A DNA stretch of 31,637 nt, taken from the IMG/VR virus record IMGVR_UViG_3300020183_000303, positions 1-31,637 of that record; one strand, given 5' to 3'. The translations under genes and the position numbers were made by a program. This document shows positions 586-24,318 of this stretch, one piece after another. Source of the DNA: a virus. The notes beneath the pieces are model-generated. The model made no database searches. It was given only the letters and a program-made list of their open reading frames with translations, and was not told the DNA's origin. Each line of letters begins with the position of its first letter. Within the stretch, counting starts at the first letter, position 1.

Positions 586-1515
586 ATGTGGATACTACCA
601 AAACAATTACACACGTCGGCCTTTGTGCCGGATACGGAGGCATTGAGCTTGGACTCCAACGAGTCCTCCCAACTCTGCGCTCAATCGCTCTTTGTGAGAT
701 CGAAGCCTTCGCCTGCGCGAACTTGGTTGCTAAAATGGAAGCGGGACTCTTGGGCTGCGCTCCTATTTGGACGGATCTTAAAACCTTCCCATGGTCAGAC
801 TTTCACGGAAAGGTGGACATCCTTACTGGAGGATACCCCTGCCAGCCCTTCTCCGCAGCAGGTAAGCGAGCAGGAACGGAAGACCCAAGACACCTCTGGC
901 CATTTATTTCAGCCGGAATTGCTGCAATGCGACCAAGTGCCTGTTTCTTTGAAAACGTCGAGGGACATATCTCGCTGGGGTTGCCCGACGTCATCGAAGA
1001 CTTGGCAGGACTGGGTTACCGAACGACGTGGGGACTATTCTCTGCGGCTGAAGTCGGCGCACCGCATCAGCGAAAGCGAGTGTTTATCTTGGCCTACCGC
1101 TGCGAGTCGGGATTGGAAGGGATGCTACACCACATTGCAGCGCAAGGACGGCAAGATGAGGGGCGATCTGCTGCCCGATGCGGTGAACATCGAGGAGATG
1201 CATGGCCCTCCCGCCCCGGCGAGCAGCAACACTGGTGGGAGCCGCCCAGAGTTGTGGGCAACGCCGATCATGGGCGACTCGCATCTGGCCTCGACGCCGG
1301 AAGTGGCAGCCAAACGTCTGGAGGAGGGCAAAGCAACGTTGAGCAGACAGAATCCAGGCAAGCTGAACCCCCGCTGGGTCGAGACGCTGATGGGCCTGCC
1401 AGTAGGATGGGTTATGCCGAGCTGTGCCTGTCCTGTGACAATCGCACCGACGAGCTGCGCCTTCTCGGCAACGGAGTCGTCCCAGCAACAGCAGAGCGAG
1501 CATTCCGAACATTGA
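586..1515 (+). CDS. Overlapping ORF inside the C5 methyltransferase gene
   Basis: A 309-codon frame covers nearly the whole methyltransferase gene in another phase and begins at ATG 586, two bases before the enzyme's GTG. The translation does not look random. It has LKTSRDISRWG, then RLKSAHRISESECLSWPTAASRDWKG, here read as two adjoining segments RLKSAHRIS and SWPTAASRDWKG, and then GKLNPRWVETLMGLPVGW near the end. From memory, these resemble a family of phage proteins with WPT and LNPxWVExLMGxPxGW motifs found with phage C5 methyltransferases. The canonical A/C-rich leader sits before this ATG. It could be a true second product, a frame conserved only because the enzyme is conserved, or a frame joined to the enzyme by frameshifting. 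Function unknown. Confidence 0.5.
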   Translation: MWILPKQLHTSAFVPDTEALSLDSNESSQLCAQSLFVRSKPSPARTWLLKWKRDSWAALLFGRILKPSHGQTFTERWTSLLEDTPASPSPQQVSEQERKTQDTSGHLFQPELLQCDQVPVSLKTSRDISRWGCPTSSKTWQDWVTERRGDYSLRLKSAHRISESECLSWPTAASRDWKGCYTTLQRKDGKMRGDLLPDAVNIEEMHGPPAPASSNTGGSRPELWATPIMGDSHLASTPEVAAKRLEEGKATLSRQNPGKLNPRWVETLMGLPVGWVMPSCACPVTIAPTSCAFSATESSQQQQSEHSEH

Positions 1516-1541
1516 TGAATGAACTGATGTACCGCAGATGA
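588..1541 (+). CDS. DNA C5-cytosine methyltransferase
   Basis: Transfers a methyl group from S-adenosylmethionine to C5 of cytosine in DNA; in phages such enzymes commonly protect against host restriction. The 317 aa frame has the family motifs in order: SAM-binding motif I (GLCAGYGGIE, residues 11-20), catalytic motif IV (PCQPFS, Cys85), motif VI (ENV, 122-124), motif VIII (QRKRVFILA, about 161-169), a variable target-recognition region, and the closing GNGVVP motif (294-299). The only start upstream of motif I is GTG at 588, which overlaps an ATG at 586 opening a different frame (ATGTG). The gene is flanked by direct repeats shared with the next two genes. The specificity cannot be read from the sequence. 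The variable region (about 171-280) is rich in G, S, R and E and overlaps the conserved part of the other frame. Confidence 0.93.
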   Translation: MDTTKTITHVGLCAGYGGIELGLQRVLPTLRSIALCEIEAFACANLVAKMEAGLLGCAPIWTDLKTFPWSDFHGKVDILTGGYPCQPFSAAGKRAGTEDPRHLWPFISAGIAAMRPSACFFENVEGHISLGLPDVIEDLAGLGYRTTWGLFSAAEVGAPHQRKRVFILAYRCESGLEGMLHHIAAQGRQDEGRSAARCGEHRGDAWPSRPGEQQHWWEPPRVVGNADHGRLASGLDAGSGSQTSGGGQSNVEQTESRQAEPPLGRDADGPASRMGYAELCLSCDNRTDELRLLGNGVVPATAERAFRTLMNELMYRR

Positions 1542-2478: not shown

Positions 2479-2525
2479 CAATCGACCAATGCCGCAGATG
2501 ACTCCTAACGCCGACAAACCATGAG
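2479..2525 (+). repeat. Direct repeat copy C after the second methyltransferase
   Basis: Bases 2492-2525 are identical to copy B, and bases 2479-2495 match copy A (caatcgaccaatgccgc), so copy C carries both blocks. It closes the two-methyltransferase segment and acts as the leader of the gene at 2521. The noncoding part preserves the tail of the 342-560 gene, consistent with recombination or duplication at this boundary. Confidence 0.88.
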
Positions 2526-3153
2526 AAACGTTAACTTGCCAAAGTCCCGTGTTTACGTCCGTTGCGATGCTTTTGGAGGCAGCGAGACAGAGTATGAACC
2601 ATCGTGGCTAGTTAGCGTGAGGGCTATGCGGAATCGTCCATTTTGCTTCCAAGTCTGGGTGGATAAATACGCAGCTTGTTACGATAAGATACCGCCACAG
2701 TGCATTTACCACTACAAGCCGGATGAAGATCAAGCAAACTTCCCACTACATAAAGTGCAGTTATGGGAGTGTCTATCTGGCAGTATCGAGGTCTGGCAGA
2801 AAAGCCAACTCTGCGATGTGCCAATGGTTATTAACATGGGTAAGGACTGCCCTCCGATGACTGGTCATTATTGGTTTACGATTGACTTCCTTCCAGAGCA
2901 TCAATGCGTAGGAAACTTGGACATTGGTGACGTTGAACTTTTGGAGGAACACAAAGAGGGTAACGTGGTAAAGCTCTCCAACGGGCAGATTGCTATTTAC
3001 CCAAACAATCGTTTGAAGTGGTTGCCGATTAGCCTCACCCCGAATGGTGCTGCCGAGCTTATCCCTGACTGGGATGTTGCCACAAACGAGCAATGGGATG
3101 AATGGTGGCAGGACTCAACAGAAATCCTTGGAGATGCTAAATGGGCTTACTAA
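2521..3153 (+). CDS. Hypothetical protein (210 aa) beside the methyltransferases
   Basis: I do not recognise this protein. It is soluble and rich in aromatic residues and cysteine in its N-terminal half, with no signal peptide, P-loop or evident catalytic motif. The segment around residues 140-165 (ELLEEHKEGNVVKLSNGQIAIY) looks like beta strands. Its leader and first bases are identical to those of the methyltransferase at 1561, so the two genes share translation-initiation signals through the repeat. The context suggests an early accessory gene, possibly involved in countering host defence, but this is inference from position only. Confidence 0.78.
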   Translation: MRNVNLPKSRVYVRCDAFGGSETEYEPSWLVSVRAMRNRPFCFQVWVDKYAACYDKIPPQCIYHYKPDEDQANFPLHKVQLWECLSGSIEVWQKSQLCDVPMVINMGKDCPPMTGHYWFTIDFLPEHQCVGNLDIGDVELLEEHKEGNVVKLSNGQIAIYPNNRLKWLPISLTPNGAAELIPDWDVATNEQWDEWWQDSTEILGDAKWAY

Positions 3154-23511: not shown

Positions 23512-24318
23512 TTAGTTTGTCATGTATGATGGGATTGTTTGGTCGGCCCAGACGACCCTTGACGATACGTTTTCTATCACGCAATCAAGTTTTGGGCAAT
23601 GAACGAATTTAGGTGCGGACTCCCGGCGATCTACGCAGGCCGTGCAAGCATGGACATAATCGCAGTTGTGTGTGCGGTCTGCTTTTTCGCGCCACTTTCC
23701 ATCCACCTTCTCATACCGGCTTGTCTGAATCGGAACATCATGTTCCTCGCAATACTGAAACACATCATCGTGCGTCCAATCCTTCATCGGAAAAAACGCA
23801 TTACATTGCCCAGGATTAATCCTCACATCAATTCTTGTTCCTGCGTCTCCACCATAAATCGGGTCGCTATCGCACAGCTTGTGTCCTACAAGCATCCCGT
23901 CCCACCCAGCAGCAATCCCATGGCTTTTGGGCCGATGGTAAATATCCAACGCACAAACCCATGGCTGTCCTTCCTCAATCGGGGTGATTCCGGTTGGGCA
24001 GGTCATGTCCGTCGAGTCAAAAATGTATTTGTTTTGGATCTCAAACTCATCATCTGTTTGCTGAAAATTACTGTATGTTGGATGCCACGTGTAAACTTCT
24101 AGCCCCCATTCCTCAATAATCCTGTTCTGAAATGCGTATTTGTGTGGCTGCCATTGCTCACGATAAAACACAACAGGAGTTTTCGCTCCAACTTTGTTGA
24201 AAACAAGATCAAGCAATGCCATGCTGTCTTTGCCACCACTCCATGCAAGAACTGGTTTGCTAGAATGCTTCAAGCAAAGATCAATGTTTCGCAGTGCTTT
24301 CTGTATTTTGATTTCCAT
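23512..24318 (-). CDS. PP-loop ATPase, PAPS-reductase-like
   Basis: A 268 aa enzyme of the phosphoadenosine-phosphosulfate reductase/adenine-nucleotide alpha-hydrolase family. The PP-loop SGGKDS (27-32) binds nucleotide, and LAWSGGKDSMALLDLVF is a classical core. Later segments (MLVGHKLCDSDP; CNAFFPMKDWTHDDVFQYCE) also fit. A C-terminal cysteine group (HNCDYVHACTACVDR, then HCPKLDC) may bind metal or take part in thiol chemistry. Relatives reduce PAPS, or activate bases in tRNA thiolation and DNA phosphorothioation (DndC); which applies here is unclear. No dnd-type partners are present. It is an enzyme inserted among virion genes, coupled by TAATG to the previous gene. Confidence 0.85.
   Translation of the reverse strand: MEIKIQKALRNIDLCLKHSSKPVLAWSGGKDSMALLDLVFNKVGAKTPVVFYREQWQPHKYAFQNRIIEEWGLEVYTWHPTYSNFQQTDDEFEIQNKYIFDSTDMTCPTGITPIEEGQPWVCALDIYHRPKSHGIAAGWDGMLVGHKLCDSDPIYGGDAGTRIDVRINPGQCNAFFPMKDWTHDDVFQYCEEHDVPIQTSRYEKVDGKWREKADRTHNCDYVHACTACVDRRESAPKFVHCPKLDCVIENVSSRVVWADQTIPSYMTN

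Follow-up and report, generated by a model that had tools for sequence, protein, structure and literature searches.

We found that a phage C5-cytosine methyltransferase gene contains two long, overlapping reading frames on one strand, with conserved motifs IX and X in different frames, both frames conserved and under selection, and their start codons paired. The gene very probably encodes a two-subunit C5 methyltransferase that works like M.EcoHK31I, its halves read from overlapping same-strand frames, with the second chain (B) spanning the whole catalytic frame (A) and the two starts set side by side. The window (the complete 31,637-nt stretch analysed here, from IMG/VR record IMGVR_UViG_3300020183_000303) is a phage contig with matches to a major head protein, terminase large subunit, DnaC-like loader, endolysin and tail fibre. 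Frame B lies inside the span of A except for its first two bases, and is thus a second polypeptide in another frame inside the first gene. The coordinates, lengths (309 codons for B at 586-1515, 317 for A at 588-1541) and ATGTG start overlap are all as the first-pass annotation gave them. The main features are listed below; substitutions were classed as nonsynonymous (N) or synonymous (S) first in A and then in B, NN/NS being the measure for B and NN/SN the measure for A, with sequence pairs that are not independent and intervals from bootstraps over columns.

586..1515 (+): frame B, +1 relative to A; ATG start, 309 aa; N-terminal domain overprinted on A, followed by a recognition region of WPT type and motif IX
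588..1541 (+): frame A, chain of a C5-cytosine methyltransferase bearing motifs I-VIII and X; GTG start, 317 aa
586..590 (+): paired start ATGTG, the ATG of B and the GTG of A two bases apart, in the window and in 89 of 102 relatives
630..644 (+): frame A motif I, GYGGI (from motif positions)
648..827 (+): A codons 21-80, both frames under purifying selection, the B N-terminal domain lying over A motifs I-III; NN/NS 0.30 (0.21-0.46), NN/SN 0.22
837..854 (+): frame A motif IV, PCQPFS, with the catalytic Cys (from motif positions)
1003..1077 (+): frame B residues 140-164, confidently predicted helix; pLDDT 80-89 in blocks 141-160
1065..1085 (+): frame A motif VIII, HQRKRVF, where the catalytic half ends (from motif positions)
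1087..1122 (+): frame B SWPTAASRDWKG, where the recognition-type region with its WPT/WATP modules begins; similar modules are in-frame in Rita gp76
1188..1253 (+): frame A codons 201-222, WPSRPGEQQHWWEPPRVV region, constraint in A only; NN/SN 0.45, NN/NS 1.35
1360..1410 (+): frame B motif IX, KLNPRWVETLMGLPVGW, absent from A; NN/NS 0.27, NN/SN 1.58, and a profile match
1461..1532 (+): frame A motif X, LLGNGVVPATAERAFRTL and the following helix, with A constrained and B not (from motif positions and substitution tests)

Frame A had been called the C5 methyltransferase gene from its letters, and the Pfam search bears this out, PF00145 covering residues 10-177 (E=1.3e-31). Motif search, AlphaFold2 and Foldseek found the hallmarks of the family, namely the PCQ catalytic motif and the AdoMet-binding fold, with Foldseek matches to M.HaeIII and M.HhaI. 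In the alignment of A proteins the PCQP and S of motif IV are invariant and the F nearly so, and the catalytic half aligns with both single-chain and split C5 enzymes (E=7e-45). Motif IX was not found in frame A of the window. AlphaFold2 gave a confident catalytic domain and motif X helix (residues 299-315), while residues 193-291 were mostly below pLDDT 50; the region of A that corresponds to the half found in B is predicted to be disordered.

The missing half is found in frame B. PHROG 1008, annotated "DNA methyltransferase", matches the window's B (E=2.1e-18) and 65 of 65 aligned B proteins; it also matches the single-chain enzyme gp76 of mycobacteriophage Rita over residues 196-388 (E=2e-61), the +1-frame ORFs of phages C72C1, R23.9, ABMM1, C75C1 and JY39, and that of Gordonia phage Upyo (E=2.3e-75). 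The profile spans the recognition region and motif IX of B and extends to motif X, where the window's A gives a weak match; its annotation is silent on the protein being half of a split enzyme and on any overlap with another gene. Because PHROG 1008 matches both B and the C-terminal half of Rita gp76, B is a homologue of the C-terminal half (recognition region and motif IX) of ordinary, single-chain C5 methyltransferases. In profile-profile comparison B's KLNPRWVETLMGLPVGW aligns with motif IX as it occurs in frame in single-chain and split enzymes (E=2e-6 and 1.6e-9), and in Rita gp76 the similar WPT/WATP modules share a frame with the catalytic domain. Residues W140, R148 and R154 of B are invariant, and W169 and P170 nearly so. 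By homology the recognition modules belong to B, but codons 201-222 of A, which are constrained in the A frame, may also contribute.

The first-pass annotation had left the second product with no known role, which was wrong given this homology, and had suggested a partner, a regulator or an anti-restriction factor. The first of these suggestions fares best: B is most probably the half of the enzyme that A lacks, and the homology disfavours the other two. Searches with B found nothing in Pfam or, by profile or by fold, in the PDB. By itself B was modelled poorly (pLDDT 55), a low-confidence result that is compatible with obligate co-folding but is not proof of it. The homology to the recognition half (PHROG 1008) likewise disfavours an unrelated accessory protein.

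A possible objection is that B is untranslated, a shadow of frame A or of base composition. The window alone speaks only moderately against this, since B stays open as far in 4 of 200 synonymous shuffles of A, a weak single-sequence test. The relatives are more informative. In nearly all of 110 distinct genes B is open to ~0-34 codons short of A's end, and for most of them such openness is reached in 0-1% of synonymous shuffles, the exceptions being mainly loci cut by contig ends, two genes with A running past B, and a few more permissive genes. Among W-like loci (those retrieved using the window's own A or B protein), 105 of 106 distinct viral genes have no +1 stop across the first 160 A codons; the rate of +1 stops there is 0.00-0.01 per 160 A codons, set against 6-7 in their +2 frame, and it is about 2-4 in the related single-chain, split and internal-frame classes. 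The identity of B to the window's B averages 0.56, whereas synonymous shuffles predict 0.31, and z is 5.6 or more in 101 of 101 homologues. Judged across these sequences, the openness of B is far beyond chance.

Substitution classes point to purifying selection on the B product itself. NN/NS is 0.17 at A codons 1-20, 0.30 at 21-80 and 0.27 at 259-280, although with a broader set of pairs the value at codons 21-80 goes up to 0.60 (0.44-0.86). The rate of changes that are synonymous in A and nonsynonymous in B is 0.079 at codons 21-80 versus 0.27-0.33 in A-dominated parts. For A, NN/SN is 0.12-0.26 over codons 1-170, 0.45 at 201-222 and 0.19 at 281-312, and rises to 1.58 at 259-280, where A is free. 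The third base of A, which is the second base of B, shows unusual conservation at codons 21-80, and at 261-280 it is conserved more than the other two; codons 81-140 and 281-320 show the ordinary A-type pattern. Selection thus acts on both frames at A codons 21-80, on B alone at 259-280 and on A alone at 281-312.

The B signal is missing from single-chain control relatives (NN/NS 0.75-1.15). In the C72C1-like internal-frame class, where B opens at about codon 55, NN/NS is 0.82-0.96 at codons 1-57, before the opening, 0.86 at 58-100 (weak) and 0.52 at 101-160 (clear). From the regional ratios and these controls we infer that both frames in the window's family are under purifying selection over their shared DNA, codons 1-80 included, and B from its first codons. 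The B-specific selection, confined to B over motif IX, together with the controls, leads us to reject a shadow or composition artefact, which we regard as hardly credible. Dual coding, as the first-pass annotation proposed it, is strongly supported by B-frame selection and by conservation in relatives. Homologues with many stops in B and variation that is not reduced, which it had named as evidence to the contrary, were not seen within the W-like family; stops in B are present in distant single-chain relatives and, in the internal-frame class, upstream of the B start. Its further idea, that conserved stretches in one frame face variable ones in the other, describes B motif IX and A codons 81-140, 201-222 and 281-312 well, but not A codons 1-80, where both frames are constrained.

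The two start codons are themselves conserved as a pair. The ATG of B precedes the A start in 102 of 102 viral relatives, by two bases in 89 (ATG/GTG, giving ATGTG), by five in 12 (ATG/ATG) and by eight in one. The N-terminus of B is MWILPKQLH in most relatives; in the 89 proteins with an ATGTG start M1 and W2 never vary, and positions 3 and 5 vary once each. Upstream 4-mers resembling a Shine-Dalgarno sequence occur in 43 of the 102 relatives (background 19%), and a clear Shine-Dalgarno sequence was not found before the window's ATGTG.

These starts bear on a second alternative, programmed frameshifting, in which ribosomes starting in A would slip into B to read the recognition region and motif IX, then back into A for motif X, and so make one chain. 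The order VIII (A), IX (B), X (A) would indeed restore a normal single-chain enzyme, and related phages possess single-chain enzymes. Two shifts would be required, however, and the scheme leaves unexplained the B-frame selection on B's first 80 codons, which lie upstream of any shift, the paired starts with the conserved MWILPKQLH, and the A-frame constraint at codons 201-222; we consider it very unlikely.

The two-subunit reading would instead proceed as follows. Chain A would fold the AdoMet-binding catalytic domain (motifs I-VIII) and add the motif X helix, with a long, mostly unconstrained linker between them. Chain B, probably translated from the ATG at 586, would bring the recognition region and motif IX that A lacks, behind its own N-terminal domain overprinted on the catalytic frame of A. 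With starts only two bases apart in ATGTG, ribosomes arriving at one site could begin in either frame, and both chains would come from one mRNA, a mechanism suggested by the position of the starts. A and B would then associate into one active methyltransferase, as the alpha and beta chains of M.EcoHK31I do; they would form a heterodimer, with neither chain active alone.

The arrangement is not peculiar to the window. In IMG/VR a search with B gave 279 relatives, of which 80 loci were kept, and a search with A gave 69 loci; at every locus kept by either route B lies in the +1 frame over A. The length of B in these relatives runs from 241 to more than 500 aa. A plasmid search with B returned one partial match, and four loci were found in genomes, three of them in Verrucomicrobiota records.

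The constant company of the two frames bears on a third alternative, that B is a separate protein derived from a methyltransferase half and now doing a job of its own (regulator, anti-restriction or DNA-binding factor). Its N-terminal domain is without known relatives in Pfam or the PDB and might serve a purpose of its own. At 80 of the 80 loci retrieved by B, however, A overlaps it, A has neither motif IX nor, in the AlphaFold2 model, a folded small domain, and motif X is found in either frame; we regard a separate job for B as improbable.

Motifs IX and X were placed by pattern in the related loci, and most loci of the scan seeded with Rita were unclassifiable by these patterns. Motif IX in the +1 frame with motif X in A was found in 85 W-like loci and in seven of 11 classifiable annotated phage records, including Lacticaseibacillus, Acinetobacter and Synechococcus phages. 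Both motifs lie in the +1 frame, as in M.AquI, in nine Rita-scan loci, in PainterBoy and Upyo, and in four W-like loci; all motifs lie in a single frame in nine other Rita-scan loci, Rita and Fushigi. The W-like loci without a pattern match show a variant motif IX in B by eye, apart from those cut by a contig end. In L013, L038/L106, L058 and L065 an insert shifts motif X from frame A into frame B, and frame A ends early. The insert, located between motifs IX and X, includes a zinc-ribbon-like run rich in CxxC. In L038 an ATG in the frame of motif X seems to overlap the stop of A, and motif X could therefore be a short reinitiated peptide there.

In a further class (L155, L162, L152 and L175-L254 of the A3 scan) motif IX is in the +1 frame and B opens internally, near A codon 55. 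This internal-frame class appears to be common in viral contigs, motif IX in +1 with motif X in A being found at all 58 classifiable loci in a scan of 80 seeded with C72C1. In the phage records examined the internal B is unannotated. In a tree of the catalytic domain the W-like full-overlap genes fall on one side of a branch with 99/99 support, the tree being rooted at its midpoint and the root therefore arbitrary.

Where full-length phage records were examined, GenBank annotates one frame only, B in JY39 and A in C75C1. In Synechococcus phage Ssp-JY39 (L156) the annotated frame B is called a hypothetical protein and the methyltransferase frame is left unannotated. PainterBoy 87/86 (L151) and Upyo 54/53 (L160) are gene pairs in which each member is called a DNA methylase or methyltransferase, the two being halves of one split C5 enzyme; in both pairs the open stretch of the second frame reaches upstream of its annotated start.

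Two known split enzymes offer the closest comparisons. In M.EcoHK31I the beta chain (176 aa) is encoded in a different frame nested within the gene for alpha (309 aa). Its large chain holds motifs I-VIII and X and, according to a review, the recognition domain; motif IX is on the small second polypeptide (PMC3404938). The window resembles this enzyme (specificity YGGCCR) in that its large chain A has motifs I-VIII and X without IX, which is on the second polypeptide. It differs in that B is 309 aa and spans the whole catalytic frame, with B starting two to eight bases before A among relatives; in that the N-terminal domain of B is under selection, with no restriction partner known; and in that homology puts most of the recognition region on B, unlike M.EcoHK31I as reviewed. 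With M.AquI (CYCGRG) the window shares the placing of the catalytic half (I-VIII) and the recognition/IX half on separate chains. M.AquI carries motif X on its second chain, whereas the window has it in A, and motifs IX and X are not together on the second chain; among W-like loci motif X is in frame B only in the four insert-bearing cases above. Gordonia phage Upyo 54/53 and Mycobacterium phage PainterBoy 87/86 do have the M.AquI layout, with IX and X in the +1 frame. Single-chain Rita gp76 and Fushigi gp80 have a catalytic half homologous to A and a C-terminal half homologous to B but, unlike the window, hold all motifs in one frame and show no +1-frame selection.

For the origin of the arrangement we lean towards reciprocal overprinting, with a good deal of reserve. 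Each frame would have kept one ancestral half (the catalytic one in A, recognition and motif IX in B) and gained a second half over that of the other, B acquiring a new N-terminal domain above the catalytic frame of A, and A a linker that crosses the recognition region of B to motif X. With their starts two bases apart, the subunits would be locked to one mRNA, one initiation site and almost the same bases, and the internal-frame form would be widespread and mostly unannotated.

The splitting of motif IX onto a second chain has itself been known since M.EcoHK31I. For overlapping phage C5 methyltransferase genes we found no report in the open-access literature of full-length overlap, of paired starts or of a widespread +1-frame motif IX. 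Long overlaps with both frames constrained are usually thought to join an old gene to an unrelated new one. Here each frame most likely encodes one half of the same enzyme, along 309 codons in the window and over 500 in certain relatives, and this across about 100 distinct viral genes. If so, the single chain annotated for many phage C5 methyltransferases is without motif IX, and a recoded clone of the annotated gene in which frame B is destroyed would yield a dead enzyme. With single-chain, split, internal-frame and full-overlap forms in one family, the birth of a dual-coding gene can be tested directly.

Some neighbouring genes of the window may be noted. An N4/N6-type DNA methyltransferase (1561-2469, +; PF01555, E=3e-51) begins 19 bases past frame A; this neighbour is not conserved, being near two of 102 W-like loci with the window counted. 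A 210-aa protein at 2521-3153 (+) matches a PHROG named ferredoxin (phrog_3704, E=7e-37), and the gene at 23512-24318 (-) has weak matches to phosphoadenosine phosphosulfate reductase PHROGs.
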